Positions 3,108 through 40,928 of a stretch of 64,000 bases of DNA are shown here, piece after piece. Position numbers and translations under genes: made by a program. Within the stretch, counting starts at the first letter, position 1; every line of letters starts with the position of its first letter. The stretch is from Selenomonas sp. AB3002. GTDB lineage: Bacteria; Bacillota; Negativicutes; Selenomonadales; Selenomonadaceae. The notes under the pieces were generated by a model. It did no database searches. It was given only the letters and a program-made list of their open reading frames with translations, and was not told the DNA's origin. The stretch is from positions 682,001 through 746,000 of the forward strand of contig NZ_JNIO01000008.1 of assembly GCF_000702545.1 (NCBI RefSeq), written 5' to 3'.

Positions 3108-3137
3108 TTGACAAAAGCAAAGAAATAGTGCTATAAC
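3108..3137 (+). promoter_or_regulatory. Sigma70-type promoter, plus strand
   Basis: TTGACA (3108-3113), an 18-base spacer and TATAAC (3132-3137). It points at a leader that contains a terminator-like hairpin (3176-3207) and then a GNAT-like gene remnant at 3223. Confidence 0.6.
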
Positions 3138-3175
3138 TCTGCCGATAACAAGGGTCAAACAGCAACTACCAAGGA

Positions 3176-3207
3176 TAAGACGGAGCAGACTGCCCCGTCT
3201 TATTTTT
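3176..3207 (+). terminator. Terminator-like hairpin in the leader of the GNAT remnant
   Basis: TAAGACGG (3176-3183) pairs with CCGTCTTA (3195-3202) around an 11-base loop and is followed by TTTTT. It stands between a plus-strand promoter and the ribosome site of the 3223 ORF. It could be an attenuator or could end a short RNA of about 60 bases. On the minus strand it lacks a T run, so it is not the terminator of a minus-strand gene. Confidence 0.55.
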
Positions 3208-3222
3208 ATGAGGGGAGACACG

Positions 3223-3378
3223 ATGATGGAAAAAATCGAAACTGCCAGGCTTTGCCTTACCTTGGCAAATGATGAAGAAATGAACTGCCAGCATTTTCTT
3301 CACTTTTCTCCCACCACTCCATCCAGGAATCCAAAGATAGTGTCCCAATACTTTTCCTTATCCTGTTGCATGGCATAG
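3223..3378 (+). pseudogene. 5' remnant of a GNAT-family acetyltransferase gene
   Basis: A 51-codon ORF with a good ribosome site (GAGGGGAGACACG before the ATG). Its first 20 residues (MMEKIETARLCLTLANDEEM) match the usual start of GNAT acetyltransferases (M.KIETERL.I). From about residue 21 onward the similarity is lost and the frame runs into the 3' end of the convergent hydrolase gene. I read it as the start of a GNAT gene whose body was deleted. The assignment rests on a short N-terminal pattern only; it could be a genuine small protein. Confidence 0.4.
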
Positions 3379-4253
3379 CCATGCCCTGCACCACCTATCA
3401 GCAATTTCTCCTTCATGGTTGGGCAGACAGCGTACAGCTCATCCATCATACGGGGAGGAACAAGCCGGTCTTCCTCACCGTGTATGAAAAGGACTGGAAC
3501 CTTCATCCTGCTCATTGATGTTATGGGAGCAGCCTCAGACAGCCTGGCCCCCGTTTTGATACCACTCACCACATCCACAAAACTCATGATAGGAAACGGC
3601 GGCAGACCAAATATCACGCCAAGCTGATCAGAAAACATCTCATAGGCACTGGTATAACCACAATCCTCTATGATTGCCGCAACATCGATTATATCTTCCC
3701 TGGCTGCAGACATCAAAACCGTAGCAGCTCCCATGGAGACCCCATGCAGCACAATCCTGGCATCCGGGTCATAATTTCTGACTTTCTGCGTCCAGAGGGC
3801 AATTTCCTCACTCTCCTTGACTCCCATAGTAATGAACTGTCCCTCACTCTGGCCTGAGGCACATAAATCAGGAGTCAGCACGTGAAATCCTCGAGCCAGA
3901 TACTCCGTCGCATAGTCCCCGGCATAACGCTGGTCACGTCCGTAGCCATGCACCAGTATGGCCCAGTGGTGTCCTGATCTTTCTGGCAGGAAATGCGTTC
4001 CTGCTAAATGCCTGCCATCATTAGCTGCAATTTCCCAGTCTTCGCTTGGCATAGCGGGCTGTGCCGGAATAGTTCGCCCCTTATCCTGAATGCGCTCACA
4101 GGCGGCGGGCAACGCCATAGGGTCATTGTCATTGCCACGCTTCAAGGCATAATCCACGAAATATGCGCCAATCCAGTAGGCAATTGTCAGACACACCACA
4201 ATGCTCCCCAGTAAAGCGCAGGCAGCTATGTTTTTCTTCTTCAACTGCTTCAC
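3300..4253 (-). CDS. Membrane-anchored alpha/beta hydrolase
   Basis: A 317-residue serine hydrolase of the alpha/beta fold, related to the S33/YqkD-like group. One transmembrane segment lies at residues 8-28 (IAACALLGSIVVCLTIAYW), so the catalytic domain probably faces outward. Fold markers in order: oxyanion-region HGYGRDQRY, nucleophile elbow GVSMGAA (Ser), then FIHGEEDRLVPP with the acidic residue, and GAGHGYA with the catalytic His. The substrate cannot be told. The start is probably GTG at 4253 beside GAGGAA; TTG at 4244 is an alternative with better spacing. It is convergent with the GNAT remnant. Confidence 0.8.
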   Translation of the reverse strand: MKQLKKKNIAACALLGSIVVCLTIAYWIGAYFVDYALKRGNDNDPMALPAACERIQDKGRTIPAQPAMPSEDWEIAANDGRHLAGTHFLPERSGHHWAILVHGYGRDQRYAGDYATEYLARGFHVLTPDLCASGQSEGQFITMGVKESEEIALWTQKVRNYDPDARIVLHGVSMGAATVLMSAAREDIIDVAAIIEDCGYTSAYEMFSDQLGVIFGLPPFPIMSFVDVVSGIKTGARLSEAAPITSMSRMKVPVLFIHGEEDRLVPPRMMDELYAVCPTMKEKLLIGGAGHGYAMQQDKEKYWDTIFGFLDGVVGEK

Positions 4254-4362
4254 TTCCTCAACAACATATATTGATAACAGATGGTCACCTTTATGAGTTA
4301 TTCAGTCAAATTCCTAAACATCTTAGTACGTAGTATCTACCATATACCTTTTTTACACTGTC

Positions 4363-4677
4363 TTACAAAACGCAAATTACTATCCAACCCATAAGTACAA
4401 CGGAAACATATAGCAGCATAGCCAGCAGGAAATGACGCTTCCGTCTGCCATCCTTTGGCAGAATTATGATTGCGCTGACAAGGTCAAGAATCAAGAACAA
4501 CCCCAAGCACAAAATCCCAATAAACAGGAATACTATGATAAACTCCACAGGAGTGCCGTGCCCCATATGTTCCTTGCTATACACCTCTTCAAGAAATGCC
4601 GTAGTCCCCGCCCCCATAAAGCCAGGGGTAGCAAGCCCTAAGAGCAGAGCCAGGAGATAGTGAAATTTATGACTCAT
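4363..4677 (-). CDS. Small membrane protein of unknown function
   Basis: 104 residues with three predicted membrane segments: residues 7-25, about 43-70 (a long hydrophobic run) and 80-102. A basic loop, KDGRRKRH, lies before the last one. I do not recognise a family. Start chosen at ATG 4677 because AGGAGA sits nine bases upstream; the open frame extends 14 codons further with no better site. It stands alone, between the hydrolase on the same strand and a divergent methyltransferase gene. Confidence 0.6.
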   Translation of the reverse strand: MSHKFHYLLALLLGLATPGFMGAGTTAFLEEVYSKEHMGHGTPVEFIIVFLFIGILCLGLFLILDLVSAIIILPKDGRRKRHFLLAMLLYVSVVLMGWIVICVL

Positions 4678-4900
4678 GGTCGGCGTTCTCCTGTTTTTTG
4701 CATATCCCCCATGTTGCATCTCCTTTCTCTCAAGTCTTCTTGAGCAACATCAAATAGGTGTTCTAGCTATCCTTTTGCAAGGATTCGTGTAAAGCTCTGA
4801 TTCTCCTGCCCTTCAAAAGAATATTGAGGGAGTACAATCTTCACCGCAACCACCCTCCTGATGTATAATGTTTTCAAGACAAGAAAAAGGAGCACCATCT

Positions 4901-5500
4901 ATGACCGACTATGAGCAGGAGTGGGACAACCTGCTGGGCATCAAGACCACAGGCCGTGATGACAGCATATCCGACTTGACCCGCTTCCCCTATGAACCCA
5001 CTGACTACCGTGTCCTGGAGCAGGTTGCCAGCACTGGCCTGATAGGCAAGAAAAATACTCTTCTGGACTACGGCTGTGGCAAAGGCCGGGTAAGTTTCTT
5101 CCTCTCCAGCCAGACCAAATGCCATTCCATTGGCATAGAGTACAACCCCCGGCTGCTTGAGAGGGCCAAACTTAATCAGGAAAATGCTCCCCGGGGGCAT
5201 CTTGTGACCTTCGTCCAGGCAGATGCCGCAGATTTCACCGTACCGCCAAGGGCAGACCGTGCTTTCTTCTTCAACCCTTTCTCAGTAGATATTCTGCGCA
5301 GGGTAATGGCTAACCTGCTTATTTCCTGTTCAGAGCACCCCAGAGAAATCCTGCTCTTTTTCTATTATCCATCAGAGTTCTATCTGGAGTACCTTGCCAC
5401 ACTTCCCCGTATAACCTTGGTGGACGCCATTGACTGCCGCTTCGGCAGCGAAGCTGACCCCAGGGAGAAACTTCTGATCTACCAAACAACAGGATACTGA
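4901..5500 (+). CDS. SAM-dependent methyltransferase (class I)
   Basis: A 199-residue Rossmann-fold methyltransferase. Motif I is LLDYGCGKGRVSFFL, followed by the acidic residue GIEYNP (end of beta-2), then VQADAADF and FFFNPFS in the motif IV position. The substrate is unknown. ATG 4901 follows AAGGAG with normal spacing; an in-frame start at 4868 lacks a ribosome site. A TATAAT box at 4864-4869 would place the transcript start close to the gene. The gene is monocistronic, with convergent yeiH downstream. Confidence 0.8.
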   Translation: MTDYEQEWDNLLGIKTTGRDDSISDLTRFPYEPTDYRVLEQVASTGLIGKKNTLLDYGCGKGRVSFFLSSQTKCHSIGIEYNPRLLERAKLNQENAPRGHLVTFVQADAADFTVPPRADRAFFFNPFSVDILRRVMANLLISCSEHPREILLFFYYPSEFYLEYLATLPRITLVDAIDCRFGSEADPREKLLIYQTTGY

Positions 5501-5504
5501 CACG

Positions 5505-5538
5505 AAAAAAGGAAGCCCGGAGCAGCGCCCCGGACCTT
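5505..5538 (-). terminator. Terminator of yeiH
   Basis: On the minus strand a GC-rich stem (AAGGTCCGG with CCGGGCTT, one bulge) is followed by a T run (5505-5510). It lies just behind the yeiH stop codon. Confidence 0.6.
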
Positions 5539-5554
5539 GGCATCTTTATGCAGT

Positions 5555-6538
5555 TTACAATATCCCCGTCACATACTGTACCAACAACGACATGCAAGCC
5601 ACTGCCACCCAGCAGCAAAAGCCCAGGGCGATAGGGGCCAGACCGTGGCGCACGAGTTCCATCAGCCGGGTATTGAGGCCGATGGCGCACATGGCCAGCA
5701 CGATGGCAAACTTGCCCAGGCTGCCCAAGGCATGGGCAAACTCTGCGGGCAGTACCCCTGTGGTATTCACGATGGAAGCTGCCACGAACCAGAGAATGAA
5801 CCAGGGGAAAATCTTCCCCAACTTGAACCCCTGTCCCTGGCCTGCCTTTTCCCTAGCCATGAGCAAGGCAAAGATAAGGCATACGGGCACAATCATCAGG
5901 GCGCGGGTCAGCTTAACGATGGTGGCAAAGCCGCCTGCCTCCTCGCTGTAGGAATAGCCTGCCGCTACAACAGAAGAAGTATCATTCACCGCCGTACCGG
6001 CCCACATGCCGAAGCCGAAGTCCGACATATTCATCAGATGCCCCAAAAAGGGGAAGATGAATACTGCCAGCACATTGAACAGGAAGATGGTGGAAATGGA
6101 AAAGGCAATGTCCTTGTCCTTGGCCCCGATAACAGGCGCCACTGCCGCAATGGCCGAACCGCCGCAGATAGCTGTACCTGCGCCGATGAGGGTGGTAGTG
6201 CTTCGCTCCAGCTTCAGCAGCTTTCCCACGGAGAGGGCCACGGCAAAGGCGGTGAGCAGGGTGAAAATCATCACAGACAGGGACTGGGAGCCCACCTCCA
6301 GCACATGGAACAGATTCATTTCAAAGCCCAGCAGGATAATAGCGTACTGGAGGATTTTCTTCCCCGTAAAGGCAATGCCCGCTTCCACCGCCTGAGGACG
6401 GCGCAGCCCCGCAAAGATCATGCCCAGCAAAATGCCAAATACCGGCCCGCCTACAATGGGAAACTCCTGCCCCAACAGCCAGGCCGGCACCGCAAAGACC
6501 AGGGCAAAGAAAATGCCCTGGAGATGTTCTTTCTTCAT
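5555..6538 (-). CDS. YeiH/UPF0324 family membrane protein (putative sulfate or small-anion exporter)
   Basis: 327 residues with about ten hydrophobic segments. The family signature IGAGTAICGGSAIAAVAP lies near residue 120, and WAGTAVNDTSSVVAAGY follows near 180. Known relatives are inner-membrane proteins, some linked to sulfonate or sulfide metabolism; the substrate here is inferred only at family level. ATG 6538 follows AGGGGG, and an in-frame start 11 codons earlier has no such site. Relatives often sit beside a LysR regulator, but none is present here. It has its own promoter and terminator, so it is a single-gene unit. Confidence 0.85.
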   Translation of the reverse strand: MKKEHLQGIFFALVFAVPAWLLGQEFPIVGGPVFGILLGMIFAGLRRPQAVEAGIAFTGKKILQYAIILLGFEMNLFHVLEVGSQSLSVMIFTLLTAFAVALSVGKLLKLERSTTTLIGAGTAICGGSAIAAVAPVIGAKDKDIAFSISTIFLFNVLAVFIFPFLGHLMNMSDFGFGMWAGTAVNDTSSVVAAGYSYSEEAGGFATIVKLTRALMIVPVCLIFALLMAREKAGQGQGFKLGKIFPWFILWFVAASIVNTTGVLPAEFAHALGSLGKFAIVLAMCAIGLNTRLMELVRHGLAPIALGFCCWVAVACMSLLVQYVTGIL

Positions 6539-6576
6539 AAAGGATCCCCCTTGCAATATCTTCATTGACAAGGGTT

Positions 6577-6605
6577 ATCTTAGCATTTAGATTGTAATAT
6601 GTAAA
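6577..6605 (-). promoter_or_regulatory. yeiH promoter
   Basis: On the minus strand: TTTACA (6600-6605), 17-base spacer, TAAGAT (6577-6582), about 40 bases before the yeiH start. The flanking DNA is AT-rich. Confidence 0.55.
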
Positions 6606-6683
6606 ATACTATTATCAGATTGTTATCATAGGTGTTTGCATATATATCATATATACGCTTGTCTAACATGACTGACCTCCATC

Positions 6684-7265
6684 TCACGCTCTGTCGTAAG
6701 CAAACCGCCTTATCTCTCCCAGCCTCTTATAGAGATTCTTGCCAGGACACGCGGTGTCGTTGAGATCCCGATGCCCCACGATGACTCCCTTCTTCCTGGA
6801 ATCCAGCCCATACTTCCGGCACAACCAATAGCACAATTCCTTTACCGCTGCCATCTGTTGCTCAGTAGGCTTGCCAATCTCGAAATTCCCTGCCAGGCAT
6901 ACGCCGATAGAGGTCTCATTGTTGTCCTGGGCATGAGCACCAACCTTCACGGGCTGTCTGCCCTGCTCAATCATGCCGTCTTTGCGGATCAGATAGTGAT
7001 ACCCTATCCCAGCCCAGCCGTTGTGCTCCTGATGGTACTTGTGTATAGCTGCAGCAGTAGAGTCCTTATCCACTCCCGGAAAGCCCGTGTGATGTATCAC
7101 TATGAACTCCGTGGCCTTGCGGTCTTTATACTCCGTAAAATCAAAGAACCTCTTGTATATCATAGGCTCCGTATAGGCCGCCTCAACTTCCGACAGCTTC
7201 CACTCACCTATCATCAACCCCAGAAGGCAGACAGCACTCTGCCTCAGAAACTCTCGCCTGTCCAT
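6684..7265 (-). CDS. Exported N-acetylmuramoyl-L-alanine amidase (amidase_2/PGRP fold)
   Basis: A 193-residue peptidoglycan amidase that cuts the lactyl-peptide bond. The N-terminus MDRREFLRQSAVCLLGLM resembles a Tat-type signal (RREFL). The catalytic domain starts near residue 45 and shows the zinc ligands: IVIHHTG (first His), a His in GAHAQDN, then VGHRDLNDTACPG (His and Cys). GIGYHYLIRKDGMIEQGR is the typical core. ATG 7265 follows GGAGG, 11 codons inside the open frame. It probably acts in cell-wall turnover or as a lysozyme-like enzyme. The upstream gene (7327) is on the same strand 61 bases away. Confidence 0.9.
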   Translation of the reverse strand: MDRREFLRQSAVCLLGLMIGEWKLSEVEAAYTEPMIYKRFFDFTEYKDRKATEFIVIHHTGFPGVDKDSTAAAIHKYHQEHNGWAGIGYHYLIRKDGMIEQGRQPVKVGAHAQDNNETSIGVCLAGNFEIGKPTEQQMAAVKELCYWLCRKYGLDSRKKGVIVGHRDLNDTACPGKNLYKRLGEIRRFAYDRA

Positions 7266-7326
7266 GTCCCCAGCCTCCTGCTTAAACCGAAAATCCATTC
7301 TGATTTAAAATACCTTCCACACTCCT

Positions 7327-7809
7327 TTATTCCAGTTTGTACCCCAAATGCGCAAAGACGTTTTGCAGCGGCTGCTTATCACGGATATCCAGCCAGTCAT
7401 CAGGACGGCTGTTGTCATCAATCAGGATCAGCAGATAGTCCAATATCATCCGCCGGGCTGCCCACAGCCCCACCTCATTGGCCATAAATTTATGCCCTGC
7501 CAGACGCACAGCCCCATCCACATAGCTGTTGGCGATAATCAAATCTCCAATCACAGGCACCACAGCTTCCAGTGCTGACCAGACCTGCAAGGAAGAATCT
7601 CCTGGCTTATCACCCCAGTAAGGGCTGTGCTCCACAATCTTATATGCCATTTGCAAGGCATGGTTCTGAGCGATGTACTCCATAGCCGTCAGATCTTCTC
7701 TGTCCAGCGCCTCCACCATAGCTTTATACCGTGCGTATGGTCCAGCCTTTTCCTTGGCCGCCTTGGCCAGACGTGCCTCCCGAGCCTTAGCAAAATCAAT
7801 TATGTCCAT
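7327..7809 (-). CDS. Conserved hypothetical protein
   Basis: A 160-residue soluble protein of unknown role. The first 40 residues are charged and helical (DIIDFAKAREARLAKAAKEK), similar to short leader helices of small phage or replication-linked proteins, which does not identify it. The middle (VWSALEAVVPVIGDLIIAN) is hydrophobic but too polar around it for a clear membrane segment. ATG 7809 has GTAGGAAAC in front. An eight-base direct repeat (GTATACCA at 7843-7850 and 7855-7862) lies just upstream and could hold promoter or operator elements. It precedes the amidase on the same strand. Confidence 0.55.
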   Translation of the reverse strand: MDIIDFAKAREARLAKAAKEKAGPYARYKAMVEALDREDLTAMEYIAQNHALQMAYKIVEHSPYWGDKPGDSSLQVWSALEAVVPVIGDLIIANSYVDGAVRLAGHKFMANEVGLWAARRMILDYLLILIDDNSRPDDWLDIRDKQPLQNVFAHLGYKLE

Positions 7810-7949
7810 GTTTCCTACCCATTCTAGTTTTTCTATTTGTCTGTATACCATAAAGTATACCACATTCCAATGTGTTACCCCAAAAACACTCTAGTCTAGA
7901 ATTACCTTAATTTCCACTGGTGTCTGAACATAATGTGAACCGTTCTTTG

Positions 7950-7989
7950 CACATTCAAAAAGGGCTGCGGGCAGCCCTTTTTGAATGTG
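7950..7989. terminator. Bidirectional terminator
   Basis: A near-perfect palindrome (arms CACATTCAAAAAGGGCTG and its complement, loop CGGG) with A and T runs on both sides. It closes the pxp/symporter operon on the minus strand. Confidence 0.9.
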
Positions 7990-8024
7990 TATGATTTTTG
8001 CCAGTAGAACTATCACCAGCGAAT

Positions 8025-9425
8025 TCACGCGTGAACTTGTGACGCAATGCATCGTCTCATCACCCGCTTCCACACTATTCCCAGCAGAACCACGGCCAGA
8101 CTTACCCCCAAGCCGACAAATACGGGAGACACGGCCGTGTGAATCAGACCAGCTGCTGCAGCGGAGCATATGGACAGTATCATGGAAGCCATTGCCCACT
8201 TGGAATCCAAAGCCTTGGGCCTGAATATAGCCAGTGTCAGAGGAATAAATACGCCGCATCCTCTAAGGGACATGGACAGGTAATTCCAAAACAAAATCTG
8301 CGACCCCTGATTTGACAGCGCAATAGCCATAGCTATAGCAATGGCTCCCACCACAGACAGCCTCATAAGCATGAGTTTTCCAGCTTCCGTCCGCACCTTC
8401 AACATAGGTTCCAGCATATCTCTGGCAACCATAGTGCCCACACCCAGGCTAAGACCCGCAATGGACCCTATAACCCCCAGAACAATGCCTCCCAAGGCCA
8501 TTCCGCCCATCAATGGCGAGGCATATTGCAGCAGATATGCTGGCAGTGCCAGCATGGCTGGAAGTTCAGGATGTGCAGACTGCATATATATGCCCATCAT
8601 GGCACAGGGCAGCCCTATGGGTATGGCAACCATTGCTGCCAAAATAAGCCCTACAGCTGCAGTTCTGGGTGTGGCCGCTGAGAAAATTGCCTGAATATAT
8701 GTCTGGGTGCAGATCATGCCCACCAATACTGAAGCCACATTGGTCAGAATAGCGCTTGTGCTGGTGCCCCAAATGCTGAGAAAGCCTTCAGGTTTCTCTC
8801 CCAGCAGTTCTGGTGAGGTCGCCAGCCCCTGCCAGGCCGCAAATCCCAGCGCAAAAAGTGTCACAAAGAGTACCAGCATCTTCAGGATCCCACCTATAGA
8901 GGCCGTCTTCATTCCACCGAAAAAAGCGTACAGGATTACCAACAGCAATAGCAACCCCGCCGATATCACGGGTGAAAGTCCCGTCAAGGCAGCCAGCAAG
9001 CCAATCCCAGGGAGGATGCTGGATACTGCGCTGAACAGTATGCCAAAGGAAGTGGCGCAACTGGTAATCCTGCCTGCCCCTTTCCCATAATTGCCAACAA
9101 TATACTGGGATATTGTCTCCAACCCCGTATAGCGCAGAGGACGGGCATAGATGAGTCCCATAAACAGCAAGGACAAGCCCACACCTATAGTAAACCATAC
9201 AGCCGACAGACCTACAGAACCGGCCAGCTGCGCCGTGCCGATAGTGGCACCGCCTCCCACACAGGTACCAGCAATGCTCCCAGCTATCATGGGAACACCT
9301 GCCGAGCGGCCTCCCAGGCTGAAGCCTTCAGATGAATGCACCGACCTGGCTGCATACAAACCGCCACCAAGAACCAGACAAATGGTCATAGCCATTATAG
9401 CCAGGTGACCAATCGAGAATTCCAA
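8025..9425 (-). CDS. Sodium:solute symporter family transporter
   Basis: A 466-residue inner-membrane protein with about 13 hydrophobic segments. It has SSF-family features such as GGRSAGVPMIAGSIAGTCVGGG in the first loop and GLETISQYIVGNYG, then LYAFFGGMKTASIGGILKM. It is the last member of the 5-oxoprolinase operon. Transporters in this position are thought to bring in 5-oxoproline or a related acid, so that substrate is an inference from context. It appears intact, unlike three of its operon partners. The start ATG at 9425 is reached after about 120 bases with no gene, behind the broken ycsI. Confidence 0.8.
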   Translation of the reverse strand: MEFSIGHLAIMAMTICLVLGGGLYAARSVHSSEGFSLGGRSAGVPMIAGSIAGTCVGGGATIGTAQLAGSVGLSAVWFTIGVGLSLLFMGLIYARPLRYTGLETISQYIVGNYGKGAGRITSCATSFGILFSAVSSILPGIGLLAALTGLSPVISAGLLLLLVILYAFFGGMKTASIGGILKMLVLFVTLFALGFAAWQGLATSPELLGEKPEGFLSIWGTSTSAILTNVASVLVGMICTQTYIQAIFSAATPRTAAVGLILAAMVAIPIGLPCAMMGIYMQSAHPELPAMLALPAYLLQYASPLMGGMALGGIVLGVIGSIAGLSLGVGTMVARDMLEPMLKVRTEAGKLMLMRLSVVGAIAIAMAIALSNQGSQILFWNYLSMSLRGCGVFIPLTLAIFRPKALDSKWAMASMILSICSAAAAGLIHTAVSPVFVGLGVSLAVVLLGIVWKRVMRRCIASQVHA

Positions 9426-9545
9426 TACTATGCGCTTCCTTCCCCAAAAAGCAAACCACCAATATCATTGAAGAGCTGCCCAGCAATCGCTATCAGCTGA
9501 CGCTATTGCATGGCATAATCTAGTGCTCATTCTAACTATTTCACC

Positions 9546-9969
9546 TTAAAATTTCAAATTTATATTTTTCGTGTCTGTAATCAGCATATGACCTGGTGCA
9601 TGGGTAATCACGAAATCAGGCCGGGAATTCATGATGATATTCTGAGGTGTCACGCCGCAGGGCCAAAACACAGGTACTCTCAACTACATTTTCGTACTCC
9701 CCCTTCAATTCACCCTGCTCGTAAATTCTGTACTTGGGAATATCTGTAGCTATGTCCGCCTCCCTGGCTATATACTTGAGGAGCCTTTCCCCCGTATCGC
9801 TGACTTCCAGCAAGGGGCAAGGCCTGGGGTTTCTTTGAGCAAAAAGCAGGAAATCATAGGCAATATCCTTGGGCAGAGTCACCAGATTCGCCTGTGCATA
9901 TCCCTTGCACATGCCGGAGGTCTGGCCAGTAATCCTGCCCGCCCTTATCTGATGCCTGACTTCTGATGG
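9546..9969 (-). pseudogene. ycsI: ycsI (DUF1445, putative hydro-lyase / D-glutamate cyclase-like), internally deleted
   Basis: The N-terminal part is readable in one frame: SEVRHQIRAGRITGQTSGM, then YAQANLVTLPKDIAYDFLLF and RNPRPCPLLEV. After [11 protein letters not shown] the family similarity stops, and that frame ends at 9616. In another frame, from about 9675 to 9546, the family C-terminus is intact: [12 protein letters not shown], then [11 protein letters not shown]. So roughly the central 90-100 codons have been removed, with a frame change at the join. The 5' end is fused to the truncated accC. YcsI-like proteins usually sit in pxp operons, which supports the identity. Confidence 0.8.
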
Positions 9970-10960
9970 TAACCCTTATGTCCTGCTGCTTCCAAGGCAG
10001 ATGACTCCCTCCTGCCACCAGCAGTTGTGCTTTGACCAAGTCTGTATCCGTAACCGCCTCAGTAACAGGATGCTCCACCTGTATACGGGTATTCATCTCC
10101 ATAAAATAGAAATTCTTTTCCCGATCAACTATGAATTCCACTGTATCTGCCCCAGCATAGTTTACGGCTTTGGCTGCCAGTACTGCCGCTTTTCCCATCT
10201 GTTGCCGCAAATTCTCATCCACCACAGGAGAAGGTGACTCCTCCAACAATTTCTGGTGCCGCCTTTGGGTGCTGCAATCTCTTTCTCCTAAATGTACCAC
10301 CTCGCCATATTGGTCAGCCATAATCTGTATTTCAACATGCCGGGCGCTTGTCAGATATTTTTCCAGATAAACGCCTGAATTGCCAAAGGAACGCTCTGCT
10401 TCCTGCATAGCCTGACGGATTTCACGTTCCAAATCCTCAGGTCTGTCAACCACCCGCATGCCCTTGCCGCCACCTCCTGCCGAGGCCTTGATTAGCACAG
10501 GATAACCGATTGCCTGCGCCGCTTCTGACGCCTGCCCGATATCTTCAATTACGTCTTCCGTCCCCGGTATGATGGGCACTCCAGCCTTTTTCATAGTCTG
10601 CCTGGCCACGGCCTTGTCCCCCATATCCCTGATGGCCTCAGGGCTTGGTCCTACAAAAATCAGTCCCTCATTCAGACAGGCCTCGGCAAATTCCGCATTT
10701 TCAGCCAAAAAGCCATAGCCTGGGTAGATTGCATCAGCTTCTGCAGCCTTTGCTGTCGCTATAATGCTGGCAATATCCAAATAAGATTTCTTAGCTTGTG
10801 CACTGCCTATGCAATAGCGTTCATCAGCCAGCTGCGCGGCCAACCCATCCAAATCGATATCAGAGCAAACTACAGCGGAAATTATACCCAGCTCACGGCA
10901 AGCCCTGATTGCTCGGCAGGCAATCTCCCCCCGATTCGCTATCAACAGCTTTTTAATCAT
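9854..10960 (-). pseudogene. accC: Biotin carboxylase (AccC type) truncated at the 3' end
   Basis: The first 330 residues are a good biotin carboxylase: KKLLIANRGEIACRAIRACR, ATP-grasp loop KASAGGGGKGMRVV, GERDCSTQRRHQKLLEE and MEMNTRIQVEHPVTE. At KQQDIRVTI the sequence leaves the family; the remaining 38 residues to the stop at 9854 are ycsI read in the wrong frame. About 115 residues are lost, including the region with the C-terminal active-site Arg (Arg338 in E. coli AccC). A complete accC at 32916-34286 shows what is missing. Probably inactive. Confidence 0.85.
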
Positions 10961-10966
10961 TATGCC

Positions 10967-11380
10967 TCACACCTTAACCCTGAAAAGTGGCTGTCCATAC
11001 TCCACAAAATCTCCATTTTTGACCAATATCTCTGCAATTTCCCCGCCACAATCTGCCGTAACCTCCGTAAAGAGTTTCATAGCTTCAAGAACGCAAACCA
11101 CCGTGTCGGGATTTACTGCACTGCCAACTTCCACAAAGGGCTCAGCTTCCGGGTCTGCAGCTGCATAGAAAGTTCCCACCATGGGCGCTTTTATTTCTAC
11201 CATGGCCCCGCTGCGAATTTCCTGCTTCCCTCTCTGAGCAGACGGTGCAGCCACCATTGCCTTGCCTCTATTCCCTTTTTCGATGGTCAGACTGCAATCG
11301 CCATTTTTGATTTCCAATCTTTGCAAGCTGGAAGCATCCAGAGTCTTCATCAAATCTTTTATTTCCTCAATGCTGATCAT
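10967..11380 (-). CDS. accB: Biotin carboxyl carrier protein (AccB type)
   Basis: 137 residues. The C-terminal biotinyl domain (from about residue 65) has the lysine motif VLEAMKLF, and IKAPMVGTFYAA precedes it. The N-terminal helix (ISIEEIKDLMKTLDASSLQRLEIKN cut short here to its pattern) is typical of AccB. AccB/AccC pairs are common inside pxp operons of Firmicutes, where they may supply a PxpC-linked carboxylation. ATG 11380 was chosen because GGGGG lies seven bases upstream; an in-frame ATG two codons earlier is too close. It is intact, while its partner accC is not. Confidence 0.85.
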   Translation of the reverse strand: MISIEEIKDLMKTLDASSLQRLEIKNGDCSLTIEKGNRGKAMVAAPSAQRGKQEIRSGAMVEIKAPMVGTFYAAADPEAEPFVEVGSAVNPDTVVCVLEAMKLFTEVTADCGGEIAEILVKNGDFVEYGQPLFRVKV

Positions 11381-11391
11381 TGCCATTCCCC

Positions 11392-11975
11392 CTACGCTTT
11401 ATGTTTCAATGCGATTTTCAGACTGCTCAGATAGCGTTCCATCTCCAGCAATTGCTCTTCCGCTTCCTTCAAAGGCACTTCCCTGAAGGAAATCTTCATA
11501 CCTGGCCGCATCTGCGCCAGTCTGGGCAAATCTGCCCCTATGACTTGGGCAATCTTGGGATAGCCGGCTATGCTTTGATGATCAGCCATCAGAATTATAG
11601 GATTTCCATCGGCAGGCACCTGCACGGTACCGAAAACAGCAATCTCGCTGATCATCTCCAGCTGCTCCTTCAATAGCAGCCTGGGACCTTCCAGGCGATA
11701 GCCCATCCTATCTGAGGCATTGGTTATCGTGAATTGCTTCGTCAATAAATCATGCAATGATTCATCACTGAATGCCCCCATCTGCAACCCCTGCAGTATA
11801 CCTATAGGACGCCTCATTTCTTTCCCGCTTAGATGGGGCAAGCTCACATACCAGGAAGCAGCCCGAAAAGATCTGGCACCCTTGCACAGCAAGTATTTCA
11901 ATAGATGTCTGGCATAGCTGCCTGCCTGACCACTGCCAAGAACATCTCCCTTGGCAAGCGCCTTGCCCTGATTTC
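11392..11975 (-). pseudogene. pxpC: PxpC (5-oxoprolinase subunit C / KipA family) lacking its N-terminal part
   Basis: PxpC forms the biotin-dependent-carboxylase-like subunit of PxpABC 5-oxoprolinase. Only the C-terminal 195 codons remain. The frame can be followed from GKALAKGDVLGSGQ (11967), matching the family GRALxxGD motif near residue 150. It continues through PIGILQGLQMGAFSDE and NASDRMGYRLEGP and ends with PILMADHQSIAGYPKIAQVI. No start codon and no N-terminal domain exist between it and pxpB; the join lies inside the last codons of pxpB. The first in-frame ATG (11901) is internal. Very likely non-functional. Confidence 0.85.
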
Positions 11976-12671
11976 CCTGTATTCCTCAACACTGATGCTC
12001 CTGAATCTTACCAGGTCCCCTGCCTGCAATAAGGACGGGTGCTCTGCTGCAGGATCATACATATCCACGGCACTTCTCCCTATAATCTGCCAGCCTCCCG
12101 GGGTACTTATCGGATAGCCTCCTGTCTGACTGCCCGCAATGCCAATGCTGCGTGCAGGTATAGCCAGTCTCGGTGTTTCCCGGCGCGGCGTAGCTATGCG
12201 TTCATTCATGCCCCCAAGATAGGGAAAACCTGGACAGAAACCAATCATATAGCACAGATACTCACCACCGATGTGTATATCAACCACTTCATACTGGCTA
12301 AGACCATGGTAACTTGCCACATACTCAAGATCCGGTCCATATTCTTCACCGTAGCAGACAGGAATCTCAACCACACGGCTTGGCTCATCAGGCATACTGC
12401 CCATCTGTGTCAGGTACTCCTCCATCAACTCCCCTACAATCTGAAAAGCATTCAGCTTGTTTTTTCCTGCTTTTCTTACCACCCCAGGGGCATATAATAC
12501 GGCCAGCCCTGTATAGGACACCACTGTTTCGATAAAACCAGCAAATGGGTGTTTCTCCACATAGTTGGATAGTTTCCTGGCTTGCCTGTTTATTTCAGGG
12601 CTTATGTTTTCTCCAAACTTCACATATAGGCAGCCTTCGCTGACCGGCAAAATCTGATAACTGTTTTCCAT
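11898..12671 (-). CDS. pxpB: PxpB (5-oxoprolinase subunit B / KipI family), 3' end altered
   Basis: 257 residues of the allophanate-hydrolase-subunit-1 type. Core motifs are VVEIPVCYGEEYGPDL, YLCYMIGFCPGFPYLGG, PRLAIPARSIGIAG, QTGGYPISTPGGWQIIG and LQAGDLVRFRSIS. Relatives end shortly after EEYREIRA. Here the frame continues about 15 residues into DNA that encodes pxpC in another frame, so the natural stop was lost together with the start of pxpC. The body of the protein should still fold. It normally acts with PxpA and PxpC in ATP-dependent cleavage of 5-oxoproline to glutamate. Confidence 0.85.
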   Translation of the reverse strand: MENSYQILPVSEGCLYVKFGENISPEINRQARKLSNYVEKHPFAGFIETVVSYTGLAVLYAPGVVRKAGKNKLNAFQIVGELMEEYLTQMGSMPDEPSRVVEIPVCYGEEYGPDLEYVASYHGLSQYEVVDIHIGGEYLCYMIGFCPGFPYLGGMNERIATPRRETPRLAIPARSIGIAGSQTGGYPISTPGGWQIIGRSAVDMYDPAAEHPSLLQAGDLVRFRSISVEEYREIRARRLPREMFLAVVRQAAMPDIY

Positions 12672-12745
12672 GTCAGTCTCCCTTAGCTAAAACAGGAGAT
12701 TCCCTATGCAGGGAACCCCCTAAAATCATGATTCAGGCAAACAGC

Positions 12746-13534
12746 TTAGGCAGCTGGGTAGTCACAGCCATGATTCCCATAAGGACAACTTCCCACCTTG
12801 ATACCCGCTGTTTCCAAAACTGCCCGTATTCTTTTGGCAAAGGCCAGGGCTTTTGCACCATCACCATGAACACAGATAGTATCGGCCTTGACAGGGATAA
12901 GCTTGCCACTGGCAGTTCTTGCCTGCCCTTCCCCAGCCATAGCCAGTGCCTGTGCGACGGCCTCTTCCTCATCCTCCAGCAAAGCACCTGGCTGACTTCT
13001 GGGAGTCAGGCTTCCATCTTCCTGATAGCTTCTGTCTGCAAACACTTCACTGGCAGTTTTTAGTCCCTTGGCCTTTCCAGCCTTGATAAGCTCGCTTCCA
13101 GCCAGGCCATATAGTATAAGATTCTTGTCAGCGTCATAAACCGCAGCCGCTATAGCATCTGACAGCTCCCTGTCCTTGGCCGCCATATTGTATAAAGCAC
13201 CGTTCGGTTTGACGTGATGCAGCTTTAGCCCCTGAGCTGAGACAAAAGCCTCCAAAGCCCCCACCTGATAAAGCACTATACTGTATGCCTCCTCAGGTGA
13301 AACCGCCATTTTTCGTCTGCCAAAGCCGACTAAATCCGGCAGTCCCGGATGAGCCCCCACCGCCACCCCATGCTGCCTGGCCAGTGCCACTGTCCTCTGC
13401 ATAACCAGCGGATCACCTGCATGAAAGCCGCAGGCAATATTAGCTGAACTCACCACTTGAAGTATTTCCTCATCGTGCCCCAGTGTATACCCTCCAAAGC
13501 TTTCCCCAAGATCGCTATTCAAATCTATGACCAA
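12746..13534 (-). CDS. pxpA: PxpA (5-oxoprolinase subunit A, LamB/YcsF family)
   Basis: 262 residues, full length for the family. The typical N-terminus is [11 protein letters not shown], then [20 protein letters not shown] and [11 protein letters not shown]; the C-terminal part has DTICVHGDG. It is the subunit that cleaves the activated 5-oxoproline ring. The start codon is TTG, seven bases behind GGAGG; no ATG or GTG fits better. It is the first gene of the operon, and its leader holds two terminator-like hairpins. It appears intact. Confidence 0.92.
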
Positions 13535-13551
13535 TAAAATCCCCTCCTTTC

Positions 13552-13597
13552 AAAAAAGCCGACAGGTTGTGCAGAATAGATTCCTGCTCCTGTCGGC
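13552..13597 (-). terminator. Terminator-like hairpin immediately before the pxpA ribosome site
   Basis: GCCGACAGG (13558-13566) pairs with CCTGTCGGC (13589-13597), with an inner GCAG/CTGC stem. On the minus strand it is followed by TTTTTTG, and the pxpA Shine-Dalgarno comes only five bases later. This placement is that of an attenuator. Confidence 0.6.
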
Positions 13598-13661
13598 CCC
13601 ATTGCCATAATTTGCAGCTATTGAAGATTCATTGCCAGTACCTGTACTGGGCTATGCAAAC

Positions 13662-13707
13662 AAAAAGTGCCTGACAACAGAAATATGATACTTCTGTCAT
13701 CAAGCAC
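13662..13707 (-). terminator. Strong terminator-like hairpin near the start of the pxp leader
   Basis: On the minus strand a fully paired 16-bp stem (GTGCTTGATGACAGAA with TTCTGTTGTCAGGCAC, three G-T pairs) has a nine-base loop and is followed by TTTTTGTTT. It begins about 20 bases after the predicted transcript start. A short stem with arms CCAGTA/TACTGG (13635-13650) follows. Confidence 0.65.
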
Positions 13708-13735
13708 CTTTGCTTGTTGAAATATTATGTGGCTA

Positions 13736-13764
13736 ATTTTATCCTTCATCCTTACTGTTGTCAA
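13736..13764 (-). promoter_or_regulatory. pxp operon promoter
   Basis: Minus strand: TTGACA (13759-13764), 17-base spacer, TAAAAT (13736-13741). This is the best promoter upstream of pxpA and gives a leader of about 195 bases carrying three hairpins. Confidence 0.65.
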
Positions 13765-13817
13765 GCTGATACCGACACTTATACTGTATACACAGATGTA
13801 CGTAATCACTGTTTGTT

Positions 13818-13970
13818 TTATATTGAGCATCTTACGATGCATTTGAATGGAGCAATCGGCTTCATGCAGGGAAAGCTTGGCCGGGTCATAACCAGCACAG
13901 GAAATACCTGTCCTTGGCCAGCAGTCTTATTCATTGCCTTGTCAAATCCTATTTTCTTTGCATTTTTCAT
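13818..13970 (-). CDS. Small ORF Y, unknown (50 residues)
   Basis: An ATG start behind AAGGAG with 50 codons, beginning MKNAKKIGFDKAMNKTAGQG and ending FKCIVRCSI. It overlaps the stop of the preceding small ORF X as ATGA, which suggests coupled translation. I recognise no family. It ends before the pxp promoter. The gene may be a remnant whose 3' part was lost, since the region downstream is scarred by deletions. Confidence 0.35.
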   Translation of the reverse strand: MKNAKKIGFDKAMNKTAGQGQVFPVLVMTRPSFPCMKPIAPFKCIVRCSI

Positions 13971-14083
13971 GACAATCGCTCCTTCTGAGTTTCGTATATT
14001 TTTTCATCAGTTACTATAATATACGACTCTGGAGGGATTTCATTACAGACCACTGAGATAATCATCAGAACCATCATCAGCAT
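13967..14083 (-). CDS. Small ORF X, possible membrane or lipoprotein-like peptide (38 residues)
   Basis: Starts MLMMVLMIISVVC and continues NEIPPESYIIVTDEKIYE: a hydrophobic N-terminus of 13 residues with a Cys, then a polar tail. The spacing to any ribosome site is poor, so the true start is unsure; the frame is open for about 17 more codons upstream. It ends in an ATGA overlap with ORF Y. No family is recognised. Confidence 0.3.
   Translation of the reverse strand: MLMMVLMIISVVCNEIPPESYIIVTDEKIYETQKERLS
13992..14026. repeat. Inverted repeat, operator-like
   Basis: TCGTATATT (13992-14000) and AATATACGA (14018-14026) are perfect nine-base arms with a 17-base spacer. The repeat lies inside ORF X and just upstream of the ribosome site of ORF Y. 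It could be a regulator binding site. Confidence 0.45.
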
Positions 14084-14157
14084 ATCAGGCAAGAAAATCA
14101 CCTTTGGGACTATGGCTGTGTAAGAAATGCGGACTTATTTTCTTTTCCTGATACCAC

Positions 14158-14196
14158 AAAAAGCCGCCTTTTGACTTCCATCAACAGGCGGCTTTT
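14158..14196. terminator. Terminator of the 72-residue coiled-coil gene
   Basis: AAGCCGCCT (14161-14169) pairs with AGGCGGCTT (14186-14194), with A and T runs on both sides. It lies 22 bases after the stop codon at 14219. Confidence 0.85.
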
Positions 14197-14218
14197 CTAT
14201 ACGTATGTAGTCCAAGAC

Positions 14219-14437
14219 TTAGTTCTGGCCGAATCTCTCCTGAAGAACTGCCAAAACCTCTGCCGGATTCAAGCCCTTGCCAACAATGAAGTTTGCTACT
14301 TCCTCATTCTTGCTGGCAGCAGCAGCCTTCTCAACTTTAGCTAATTCGTCCTTCAAAGCCTTGAGCTGTGCAGTCTTAGTCTCGATTTTTGCCTTGATTG
14401 CCTCGATTTTCTGATCGTAATTAACCTGACGTGCCAT
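14219..14437 (-). CDS. Small coiled-coil protein, unknown function
   Basis: 72 residues. Residues 5-45 form a heptad-like charged helix (DQKIEAIKAKIETKTAQLKA pattern, rich in K, E and A). A short C-terminal part follows with GKGLNPAEVLAVL. ATG 14437 has GGAGG upstream; an in-frame start 37 codons earlier has none and would precede the promoter. The gene has its own promoter (14454-14483) and terminator, so it is probably a well-expressed monocistronic gene. No function is assigned. A nucleoid-associated or structural role is only one possibility. Confidence 0.65.
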   Translation of the reverse strand: MARQVNYDQKIEAIKAKIETKTAQLKALKDELAKVEKAAAASKNEEVANFIVGKGLNPAEVLAVLQERFGQN

Positions 14438-14453
14438 TAAAAATTCCTCCCTG

Positions 14454-14483
14454 ATAATAAATGATTTTGGGTATACCTTGCAA
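14454..14483 (-). promoter_or_regulatory. Promoter of the small coiled-coil gene
   Basis: Minus strand: TTGCAA (14478-14483), 18-base spacer, TATTAT (14454-14459), only about 17 bases before the start codon's ribosome region. The rest of the intergenic stretch from here to 14805 is AT-rich and shows no other feature. Confidence 0.5.
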
Positions 14484-14805
14484 AACACAGATATTTTTAA
14501 ATCATGATTTTCCTTTTTAATTTTACACATATAATCAGGAAAAATCAAGACTATTCAGCAATTAAAATAATATTTTATGATGGTGAACGTCATATTTACA
14601 AGTTATTCTTTTCAAAGATCGCTGTCGCACACAGATCTATGCACGGACGTTCAGCATTCAGTTCTATGTCAAATCTCCCCCACATGAAGGATATTCCTGC
14701 TTCAAGTCGAAATCTATAGTAGGAGAAAAACACTGTTACCTTAAAATCAAACCTCTGCCCTGCAGAGCAGGCTATCTACCTACAAGTATATAAGGAGGCA
14801 GTACC

Positions 14806-14871
14806 ATGGTCAAATTCTACGACTACTACAGGACAAACAGCCTACATTTTACCTCAGTTCAGACCTGCTGA
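14806..14871 (+). CDS. 21-residue leader ORF upstream of the FIST-GGDEF gene
   Basis: An ATG behind a strong AAGGAGG ribosome site, encoding MVKFYDYYRTNSLHFTSVQT plus a final Cys and then TGA. It ends 15 bases before the next ATG, whose own ribosome site (AGAGGTG) overlaps its end. The aromatic-rich peptide (four Y or F in the first eight) could act as a leader peptide or as a translational coupler. Short length keeps the confidence low. Confidence 0.4.
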   Translation: MVKFYDYYRTNSLHFTSVQTC

Positions 14872-14886
14872 AGAGGTGCAAATTCT

Positions 14887-16650
14887 ATGATCCAGAGAAA
14901 ATATACTTTCCACTCATTTGACGAAATGGAAAAAATCATATCTGCGATAACCGCCAGTGAATACTATACAAAGGCCTCGGGAGTCCTTTTGCAGCTTTAT
15001 AATCCTAAGATAAACATTAATGACACGCAGATTGTCGAGCGTATCAGTTCAAAATGCAGCAAAGCCTGCCTGGTAGGAATTACCTGCGCCAATATAGCAG
15101 ATGAAAGATTTGATATCAAGGATAGACCTGTAGAACTTAATGCTACCTTCTTCAGGACTACCAGGCTCTTGGCACTTGATTTTGACATGGACACCGAAAC
15201 AGGTTTTGATGCCGGGCGTTTGGCACACCATCAACTTCAGGGCATCCCTGATGCCAGGTGCATCCTGATCTGCTATTCCTGCGGCTGCACAGCTATAACA
15301 GCTTTCATCAATGAAATCAGCCACCATGACCTTCCCATTTTTGGAGCAAAAGCTGGCCGCAGCATCAGGGCTCTCAATACTGCTCTGGTATATGGCAGGA
15401 AAGCACGTGCCAATGGCATAGTTGCTGTTATCTTTGCAGGCGATGATCTGCGCCTGTACATGGACAACTGCCTCGGCTTCAAGGAAATCGGCTTGCAAAT
15501 GGTGGTAACAAAGACAGAAGGCGACCACATCATTTCAGAAATAGACCACAAACCAGCCACTGAAGTTTATTCCAAATATCTGAACGTAACCCCTAACAGT
15601 TATTTCGTCCACAATGTTTGTGAGTTTCCTCTGATCTTCCACAGAAAAAACTGTTCCTTGGCCAGAGTGCCTTCTAATTTCGGAGAAGATGGTTCCATTC
15701 ACTTCACTGCCGATGTAGTGAAAGGCGAAACCTTCAGGCTTTCTTACGGAAACCCTAACAATCTTATGCAGATCATTGACCAGTCGGTCAACGGCCTCAA
15801 AAGATTTCATCCCGAGGCCGTATTCTTGTTCGAATGCGGGAACAGGATAAGATTCCTCAAGGATCAGGCCAGCCGTGAAACCGACAGCTTCAGAGAAAAT
15901 TCACCAGAGCTATCCGTTGCCATTGGCTATGCAGAACTCTTCTATTCCCCGGACGGGGGAGGAGGATCTCTGACCAGTGCGCTGGTAGCAGTAGGGCTTG
16001 CTGAAAATCCCTCCACAAAAGATGAGTTCCACATCTGCATAGACTTCGTTGGAAAAGACAGTCCTCCAGAGGAGGAAGAGCGGGAGTACATCCCCTTTGT
16101 GGATAGGATTCTCCATTTCCTTGAAACCACCTCCATCGAACTCGACCAGCGCAACAGAGAACTGGGCAGGATTGCCTACACTGATCGTCTGACCCGCATT
16201 TATAATCGCTGGGAACTGGAAAACAAGATCACGGACATACTGAAGCTTCATGAAGATGATTTGGCTCCTGTTTCCCTGATTTTTATGGATATCGATCACT
16301 TCAAACTGGTCAATGACACCTACGGCCATGATGTTGGGGACATGGTTTTGCGGGAAACGGTTGATCTCATCAGGGATAATCTGCAGCCACAGCATGTCTT
16401 TGGACGTTGGGGCGGTGAGGAATTCCTCTATGCCCTGCCGGACACCAGCCTTGAAGAAGCCAAATCCTTTGCAGAAAACCTCAGAATGCAGGTTGAAAAA
16501 AACTGCTACAGGGTGGTAAAACACGTGACCATGAGTTTCGGTGTCACCAGCGTTGCCAAAGATGATGATATGGATTCCTTAGTCAAAAGGGCTGACAAAG
16601 CGCTATATATGGCTAAAGAAGGCGGCAGAAACCAGGTTATAGGAATTTAG
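14887..16650 (+). CDS. FIST sensor - GGDEF diguanylate cyclase
   Basis: 587 residues, with no signal peptide or membrane segments, so probably a cytosolic sensor. Residues about 35-240 form a FIST N domain (CSKACLVGITCAN, then RTTRLLALDFDMD) and about 250-400 a FIST C domain (LSYGNPNNLMQIID, ECGNRIRFL). FIST domains are thought to bind small ligands such as amino acids. The C-terminal GGDEF domain (430-585) has LTRIYNRWELE, FMDIDHFKLVNDTYGH and the active motif GGEEF, so c-di-GMP synthesis is predicted. The inhibitory RxxD site before GGEEF is absent (QPQH there). It stands alone with its own terminator. Confidence 0.9.
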   Translation: MIQRKYTFHSFDEMEKIISAITASEYYTKASGVLLQLYNPKININDTQIVERISSKCSKACLVGITCANIADERFDIKDRPVELNATFFRTTRLLALDFDMDTETGFDAGRLAHHQLQGIPDARCILICYSCGCTAITAFINEISHHDLPIFGAKAGRSIRALNTALVYGRKARANGIVAVIFAGDDLRLYMDNCLGFKEIGLQMVVTKTEGDHIISEIDHKPATEVYSKYLNVTPNSYFVHNVCEFPLIFHRKNCSLARVPSNFGEDGSIHFTADVVKGETFRLSYGNPNNLMQIIDQSVNGLKRFHPEAVFLFECGNRIRFLKDQASRETDSFRENSPELSVAIGYAELFYSPDGGGGSLTSALVAVGLAENPSTKDEFHICIDFVGKDSPPEEEEREYIPFVDRILHFLETTSIELDQRNRELGRIAYTDRLTRIYNRWELENKITDILKLHEDDLAPVSLIFMDIDHFKLVNDTYGHDVGDMVLRETVDLIRDNLQPQHVFGRWGGEEFLYALPDTSLEEAKSFAENLRMQVEKNCYRVVKHVTMSFGVTSVAKDDDMDSLVKRADKALYMAKEGGRNQVIGI

Positions 16651-16733
16651 TGAGGTACGCTGAGACAGACGGGCAAAAAGAGACTATCAAAAACACCGTA
16701 GATGAGAGTAAAATAACTGTCGTGGACCATTTC

Positions 16734-16764
16734 AAAAAGCCTGCTCGCGTTGAGCAGGCTTTTC
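16734..16764. terminator. Bidirectional terminator between the FIST-GGDEF gene and glpF
   Basis: AAGCCTGCTC (16737-16746) and GAGCAGGCTT (16752-16761) form a 10-bp stem with loop GCGTT, flanked by A and T runs. It closes both convergent units. Confidence 0.85.
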
Positions 16765-16803
16765 TTAAAGAGCAATGAAGTTTTGGTTGGAACTAAGTTT
16801 GGC

Positions 16804-17571
16804 TTAGTGGAAGTAGCCCAGAGCGCTGCAAACCACATAGGAAAGGGTTGCGCCAAGCAGGGGGCCTACCACGGGAACCCAGGCATACTCCCAGTCAGAG
16901 CCGCCCTTGCCCGGGATGGGCAGGATAGCATGAGCGATGCGGGGACCGAGGTCACGGGCAGGGTTCATAGCGTAACCGGTGGGGCCGCCGAGAGAGAGGC
17001 CAAGAGCCACGATGAGCATGCCTACGATGTAGGGACCATAGCCGTTGCCCAAGAAGGTATTGGCAGCAGTCTCTGCGCTGTAGCCGAAGCAGGAAGAGAA
17101 AGTCATCCAGATGAGGAACATCAGGAAGAAAGTAGCGCTGATCTCGGTGAGGAGAGCCGGGCCCATCTTGCGGATAGCAGGAGCCGTGCTGAAGATACCG
17201 AGCTTGGCTGCAGGATCAGAAGTCTCTTCCCAATGAGCAAGGTAAGTGAGCCATACAATGGTAGCACCCACGATGCCGCCCAGGATCTGCACAAGAGAAG
17301 TAGTGATGAACTGGCTGAAGGTGTAAACACCTGCAAAGGTCTTGGCAAGAGTAACTGCCGGGTTCAGGTCAGCCTGAGGTGCGCCGAAGGTAGTAGCGGT
17401 GAAAACACCGAAAGTAACGCCGAAGCCCCATCCGAAGGCTATGCAGATCCACCCGCCGCCTACACCTTTGGACTTGTTGAGCGTAAGGTTGGCGCAAACG
17501 CCGCAGCCCAGTACCAGGAGGACCATAGTCCCCAAGAACTCGCCTAAAAGGTTTTCAGAACCTGTTACCAT
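16804..17571 (-). CDS. glpF: Glycerol facilitator (MIP family aquaglyceroporin)
   Basis: A 255-residue inner-membrane channel with six membrane helices and the two NPA half-helices: ADLNPAVTLA near residue 72 and YAMNPARDLGPR near 205. The residue after the second NPA is Arg followed by Asp, the usual glycerol-channel pattern. It passively admits glycerol for GlpK to trap. It is the last gene of the glp operon, 113 bases behind glpK, with a long stem-loop in the gap (17622-17650) that may mark an mRNA processing or stability element. Confidence 0.93.
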   Translation of the reverse strand: MVTGSENLLGEFLGTMVLLVLGCGVCANLTLNKSKGVGGGWICIAFGWGFGVTFGVFTATTFGAPQADLNPAVTLAKTFAGVYTFSQFITTSLVQILGGIVGATIVWLTYLAHWEETSDPAAKLGIFSTAPAIRKMGPALLTEISATFFLMFLIWMTFSSCFGYSAETAANTFLGNGYGPYIVGMLIVALGLSLGGPTGYAMNPARDLGPRIAHAILPIPGKGGSDWEYAWVPVVGPLLGATLSYVVCSALGYFH

Positions 17572-17621
17572 GTGAATCCCTCTTTCTTTAGATAATAGTA
17601 TGATTACTTGATATATTATCC

Positions 17622-17650
17622 CAGAGGGAGAGGAGTCTCCTCCCCCTCTG
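17622..17650 (-). other. Intercistronic stem-loop between glpK and glpF
   Basis: CAGAGGGAGAGGAG and CTCCTCCCCCTCTG pair with one mismatch. There is no T run, so it is not a classical terminator; it could tune glpF transcript level or stability. Confidence 0.4.
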
Positions 17651-17683
17651 AGAAATATCCCTTCTCAAGCGGGGAGTTTTTTC

Positions 17684-19201
<1,518 letters not shown>

Positions 19202-40926: not shown

Positions 40927-40928
40927 GC

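Follow-up and report, generated by a model that had tools for sequence, protein, structure and literature searches.

In the 64,000-nucleotide stretch of Selenomonas sp. AB3002 DNA analysed here (contig NZ_JNIO01000008.1, positions 682,001 to 746,000; hereafter the window), the minus strand from 13534 down to 8025 carries what is very probably a pseudogenised operon for the utilisation of 5-oxoproline (pyroglutamate), of the known pxpABC/ycsF-kipIA kind. We found both a close and intact homolog of this operon, in Selenomonas ruminantium WCT3, and lesions in the window copy that disrupt its genes relative to that homolog. A preliminary description of the window had spoken of an operon dying by internal deletions, and the comparison with the intact WCT3 copy, which exposes four of them, supports this. 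The case is one of ordinary gene decay, unusually well documented by a surviving copy.

Gene order of the operon and its intact counterpart

The window operon consists, in order, of pxpA, a pxpB open reading frame (ORF), the 3' part of pxpC, an accB-like gene for a biotin carboxyl carrier protein (BCCP), the 5' part of an accC-like gene, pieces of ycsI and a gene for an SSF symporter, and the gene content first proposed was thus borne out. We scanned genome contigs with the window PxpA, taking the best 80 loci of 412 encoding relatives, with records very near the window's genome possibly left out, and found that the best locus was that of WCT3 (L044; 96% amino acid identity). The WCT3 operon is complete and encodes PxpA, a 419-residue Nramp-type protein, PxpB, PxpC (332 residues), AccB, AccC (451 residues), YcsI (264 residues) and an SSF protein (466 residues). 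The two operons are 95-98% identical, and WCT3 (G187) belongs to a different genus than the window strain. At lower identity, one further genome (G011) has the order pxpA, an Nramp-like ORF (398 residues, likeness judged by eye), pxpB, pxpC, accB, accC and ycsI, and another (G009) has the matching gene order, but with no gene separating pxpA and pxpB. Because the WCT3 operon is intact and the order recurs in these two more distant loci, we take the unbroken genes as ancestral and the state in the window as derived.

The PxpA, PxpB, PxpC and YcsI families are shared with two operons for the ATP-dependent prokaryotic 5-oxoprolinase, ycsF-ycsG-ycsI-kipI-kipA of Bacillus subtilis (presumably in that order) and pxpTABC of Corynebacterium glutamicum. 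The selenomonad operon also has an Nramp-type gene beside pxpA, as ycsG and pxpT stand in published accounts of B. subtilis and C. glutamicum, and compared with both species it has gained an SSF symporter gene and relatives of accB and accC; the window copy differs further in that its pxpC, accC, ycsI and Nramp-type gene are broken.

Four long deletions

Aligned globally with the WCT3 operon, the window copy lacks four long internal segments, of 1,232, 435, 433 and 341 bp, all described here on the minus strand. The 1,232-bp deletion (join at 12781/12782) removed the stop codon of pxpA and nearly the whole Nramp-type transporter gene, of which the last 15 codons and the stop remain (12733-12781); pxpA, also named ycsF (12746-13534), now has 251 codons followed by 11 foreign, out-of-frame residues. 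The 435-bp deletion (join at 11969/11970) took the tail of pxpB and the first ~140 codons of pxpC. The pxpB ORF (11898-12671) keeps 234 of 239 native residues, having lost the last 5, and runs into an out-of-frame tail, while the pxpC remnant (11392-11969) keeps about 191 of 332 codons and matches only positions 150-260 of the 261 in the CT_A_B profile. The 433-bp deletion (join at 9970/9971) removed the 3' end of accC and the start of ycsI, leaving an accC-like biotin carboxylase ORF (9854-10960) with 330 of 451 native residues and no Biotin_carb_C domain. The 341-bp deletion (join at 9678/9679) lies within ycsI, a gene of the D-glutamate cyclase family, and divides its remnants (9546-9970), which have lost the start and together keep 140 of 264 codons. 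The accB-like BCCP gene (10967-11386) and the gene for the SSF-family sodium:solute symporter (8025-9425; 466 residues) are full length. With alignment ends and the terminator set aside, the remaining indels measure 1-2 bp and fall either within the leader (13558 and 13690) or between genes (12715).

The preliminary description had placed joins between pxpB and pxpC, between accC and ycsI and inside ycsI, and all three were found again; its count of three fell short, as the fourth and largest deletion had been missed. It had also called pxpA, pxpB, accB and the transporter gene intact and had noted the absence of small frameshifts from the retained coding sequence. The latter holds, accB is full length and the transporter gene looks intact, whereas pxpA and pxpB are preserved in length but not otherwise, since PxpA has its foreign residues and an H111N change and PxpB an exchanged end.

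The sequence common to both ends of the 1,232-, 435-, 433- and 341-bp deletions, as read from the printed flanks, amounts to 2, 4, 1 and 0 bp, respectively. We infer illegitimate end-joining as the probable mechanism. Its Ku-dependent form was rejected, as no Ku (PF02735) was found in the window genome (G000; 3.67 Mb, 8 contigs, completeness 99.83%). A search of the same genome for the deleted DNA, in which 40 of 41 candidates were scored, returned only two matches, one of 28 bp (89%) within the native accC region and one of 19 bp at the edge of a deletion, and relocated pieces or spacer-like matches were accordingly rejected. The block at 9679-9970, whose two ends are deletion joins, has 1 mismatch in 292 bp against WCT3, and the neighbouring blocks differ by ~2.5-5%.

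A survey of Salmonella pseudogenes reported that 346 of 378 had one lesion, that few had lost more than 20% of their length, that genes no longer maintained disappear under a bias toward deletion, and that short lesions predominate (PMC2916853). Like the pseudogenes in that account, most genes of the window operon carry a single deletion each; unlike them, the deletions here are long, clustered in one operon and accompanied by no coding frameshift.

Missense changes and selection

The preliminary description had seen no point-mutation decay, and two missense changes at invariant sites contradict this. PxpA carries H111N (codon 13202-13204), a position occupied by His in all 110 distinct homologs aligned, and also in two aligned homologs of solved structure, 1v6t and 1xw8. 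The AccC remnant carries G272D (codon 10145-10147), where all 17 aligned homologs have Gly. Over pxpA, pxpB, pxpC, accB, accC and ycsI, residues unseen in homologs numbered 13 in the window and 4 in WCT3 (binomial p 0.049). For this comparison we left out the WCT3 and window loci, homologs of <40% or >93% identity, duplicates among the aligned sequences and any site covered by <5 homologs, and most homologs were drawn from the loci found with pxpA.

The ratio of nonsynonymous to synonymous divergence (dN/dS) between the window and WCT3 was 0.19-0.22 for pxpA, pxpB, pxpC, accB and accC and 0.12 for the SSF gene; the value for ycsI, 0.58, rests on 3 changes. Because the dead pieces are not visibly more relaxed than the full-length genes, the deletions would have occurred late on the branch. 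If recent is judged by the time since the window and WCT3 copies parted, the ratio of ~0.2 in the pxpC and accC remnants fits the earlier proposal that the operon lost its value recently. Synonymous divergence (dS) is not uniform over the operon (chi-square p 2e-5 for seven genes; p 0.30 for the five without ycsI and SSF), and given this unevenness a mosaic history of the operon is possible.

Probable loss of 5-oxoprolinase

In C. glutamicum, growth on 5-oxoproline is reported to need PxpABC and the YcsG-like PxpT, and the model described there assigns phosphorylation to PxpB and PxpC and ring opening to PxpA (PMC13274462). As to the Nramp-type partner, one paper concludes that B. subtilis YcsG is a manganese importer (PMC10448178), and the C. 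glutamicum authors prefer 5-oxoproline uptake (PMC13274462). In the window, the PxpA (LamB/YcsF) family match spans the whole length of the protein and a PxpB (CT_C_D) family member is present. A working 5-oxoprolinase encoded by this locus is, on its predicted proteins, very unlikely, because PxpC is cut, PxpA is altered at an invariant site and the Nramp-type gene is gone. A second complete pxp operon, raised earlier as something that could explain relaxation of this one, was searched for in the window genome and not found: this genome has one pxpA, only the remnant of pxpC and no detected Hydantoinase_B member (PF02538; OPLAH-type enzyme). Replacement by a second pxp operon or by an OPLAH enzyme was therefore rejected.

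Evidence against decay and the question of assembly

Several observations weigh against pseudogenisation. The excess of unusual residues is weak, with accB based on 8 homologs only, and a count of the rarer residue, 24 in the window and 13 in WCT3, gave p 0.099. WCT3 also departs from conserved residues, at positions 13 and 66 of pxpA, 129 of accC, 133 of accB and 8 and 145 of SSF. A dN/dS of ~0.2 in truncated pieces indicates no long neutral phase. No other genome among 189 family genomes has these joins, and the one join looked for in viral contigs was absent from them. This lack of confirmation by independent sequence, together with the unusual finding of four long gaps without a small coding indel in a 5.8-kb locus, would also suit an assembly or gap-closing artefact, by which the strain holds an intact operon and four gaps were wrongly closed.

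We regard such an artefact as very unlikely. Assemblers require an overlap far longer than 0-4 bp, which is all that the joins share, and the missing DNA is nearly absent from the rest of the assembly. The same genes also have missense changes at invariant sites. Elsewhere, the window stretches that align to WCT3 or to congeners are colinear, though BLAST splits at large gaps; the comparison with WCT3 took in all of the window but 40001-44000.

Movement of the operon between genera

By blastn and by global alignment with L044, the block at 7984-13819 (minus strand) shares 95-98% identity with WCT3 and includes the 292-bp stretch of near 100%, whereas other window stretches of >60 bp that match WCT3 are 66-81% identical, with shorter ones up to 96%. 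Among the 189 family genomes searched, the operon was found at 95-98% identity only in WCT3 and the window genome. Because the high identity is confined to this block, the block has, as sequence identity indicates, moved between genera. Carriage on a plasmid was rejected, as a search of 72,556 plasmid records gave no near match.

As to direction, it was probably WCT3 that received an intact copy, the donor being related to the window strain. The dinucleotide distance of the operon (WCT3 copy) is 0.068 to the window genome and 0.143 to WCT3, by a measure that assigned each genome's own segments correctly, although the tetranucleotide distances differ little (0.113 and 0.121); in the window-genome sample used for these signatures, L035 and the window overlap by ~8 kb. 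In the tree, the operon SSF clusters with copies from the genus of the window strain (support 1.000), one congener (G004) has an SSF 3' end (77% identity over 52 residues) upstream of the same flanking genes, and the WCT3 operon is preceded by a transposase-like fragment (HTH_38; by eye of IS30 type). The same four observations argue against the opposite course, in which the window strain obtained the operon from the WCT3 lineage and let it decay as a useless acquisition. That course would agree with the limited spread of the operon in the window's genus, in which neither pxpA nor pxpC was found in any of five congeners (G001-G005), a result that counts against WCT3 as recipient; we consider it rather unlikely. 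A contig of one congener with an accC end, ycsI and SSF (G001:C104) was rejected as proof that the operon is ancestral in this genus, as the draft has 8% contamination, the contig is interrupted by runs of N and its SSF clusters with another genus.

The operon lies in a variable region of ~14 kb (3039-16803) between two MIP-FGGY gene pairs (glycerol facilitator and kinase-like; 666-3038 and 16804-19186), which in another congener (G005) adjoin without the intervening region.

The pxpA leader and the operon ends

The promoter of the preliminary description could be located as a sigma70-like sequence at 13736-13764 (minus strand), where, by consensus match only, 11 of 12 bases agree. The leader between it and pxpA folds strongly (z -4.9) and has two terminator-like hairpins (13664-13710 and 13558-13597). 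In both the window and WCT3 leaders we found three hexaloop hairpins whose loops have A as first and G as fourth base (A1/G4; 0.35 and 0.21 expected from shuffles), two of which overlap the terminator-like hairpins. In the window, all on the minus strand, CAAGC-AAAGGT-GCTTG (13701-13716) overlaps the first of these; CCAGT-ACAGGT-ACTGG (13635-13650) has the loop AAAGGT in WCT3; and TGGC-AATGGG-GCCG (13552-13607) overlaps the second together with its T-run and immediately precedes the ribosome-binding site of pxpA. Hexaloops similar to those of the window leader (13535-13735) precede pxpA in L009, L010, L011, L013, L015, L016, L044 and L088.

Among 43 leaders, 16 hold one or more A1/G4 hexaloops on stems of at least 4 (0.05-0.38 expected each), and many others hold none. 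P2-like hairpins occur before pxpA in some other Negativicutes, with stems that vary yet pair (CAAGC/GCTTG, GAAGC/GCTTC and TTAGC/GCTAA). Such a hexaloop sits on 6 of 10 terminators of pxpA leaders, counted up to 160 nucleotides upstream of pxpA in the given loci, and on 13 of 347 control terminators (Fisher p 2e-6; 2e-5 with one per locus), the motif having been noticed before the control was run.

The published target of ANTAR proteins consists of two hexaloop hairpins, with linkers of 5-12 nucleotides in eut (PMC3369931). Like the ANTAR leaders of eut, nas and ami described in that paper, the window leader has A1/G4 hexaloops, one of which overlaps an intrinsic terminator, and nitrogen-related genes downstream; unlike the eut leaders, its linker is 27 nucleotides long. 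Also unlike those leaders, the P1-P2 pair is confined to the window and L044 (27-nucleotide linker each) and L016 (12 nucleotides), with none in the other 12 of 15 pxpA leaders, which were hand-picked from the 16 with hexaloops and inspected for stems of at least 3. ANTAR proteins (PF03861 above cut-off) were found in 13 of 13 genomes searched, including the window genome, and in 0 of 14 control genomes; the compared genomes all carry pxp. No listed ANTAR gene adjoins a pxp operon in the 13 genomes. A known Rfam family for this leader was rejected, as the window leader gave sub-threshold matches only and, over 20 pxpA loci, the sole match at gathering level was a T-box in L019. That T-box leader (RF00230, 121 bits; L019:2309-2531, genome G013) lies shortly downstream of a pxpA gene. 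Judged by title and the start of the abstract, none of the 5 papers that one search listed as joining "ANTAR" and "5-oxoprolinase" concerned such leader control, and the main text of one ANTAR-target paper lacks "oxoprolin", "Selenomonas" and "Veillonella". We propose that the pxpA leader of some Negativicutes, with its terminators and ANTAR-like hairpins, is a candidate attenuator for the 5-oxoproline genes, of the ANTAR type or another.

At the other end of the operon, a terminator-like hairpin (7948-7991) is listed for the plus strand, and by eye its core with the T-run also reads on the minus strand. It is long in the window and merely a short palindrome at the same place in WCT3, so that the retained terminator of the preliminary description cannot be claimed.

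The SSF symporter and the course of decay

A second SSF copy, 88% identical in nucleotides, lies elsewhere in the window genome (G000:C8:466739-468197) as an open frame; in the draft of congener G001 (L216:1753-3118, G001:C152) a small deletion seemingly breaks it into two frames. With this second copy and its G001 homolog as outgroups, and with 15 ambiguous and 3 other sites set aside, 8 nonsynonymous and 26 synonymous changes fell on the window branch of the operon SSF (dN/dS ~0.11) and 9 and 14 on the WCT3 branch. The second copy was rejected as a source of gene conversion in the operon SSF, as the sites at which the window agrees with the second copy against WCT3 are scattered.

It had been suggested that the deletions keep a partial function of PxpAB with the transporter and a BCCP. 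For the enzyme this is not supported, with PxpC short of ~140 of 332 residues and PxpA changed at its invariant His; the SSF transporter alone may still function, given its few nonsynonymous changes. A stronger form of this idea holds that the trimmed locus is still selected as a regulated transporter unit of leader and SSF, with or without BCCP and PxpB, the catabolic genes having been discarded. The full length and low dN/dS of the SSF and the leader hairpins, which keep their pairing and A1/G4 loops between the window and WCT3, speak for it. However, the second SSF could perhaps make the operon copy dispensable, most of the branch may be older than the deletions, and the window and WCT3 branches do not differ (Fisher p 0.25); we think it unlikely. 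Less plausible still is that the four deletions represent a single burst of breakage and end-joining in the exchanged locus, which trimmed it toward an ANTAR-controlled transporter unit, rather than slow independent decay.

In sum, the unbroken form of the operon, pxpA-Nramp-pxpB-pxpC-accB-accC-ycsI-SSF, is preserved in WCT3. In the window strain, four separate long deletions took the Nramp-type gene, the 5' part of pxpC, the 3' part of accC and roughly half of ycsI, and PxpA and AccC were altered at invariant residues by missense changes. The 5-oxoprolinase would thereby be inactive, with the SSF transporter and the leader remaining.

The window thus offers a snapshot of a dying operon, in which an almost identical intact copy in another genus names each lesion to the base. 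If the candidate leader control is real, 5-oxoproline use in these bacteria would fall under nitrogen-type antitermination control. The case of pxpA suggests that a full-length frame can already be dead through one residue, a death that annotation based on length misses.

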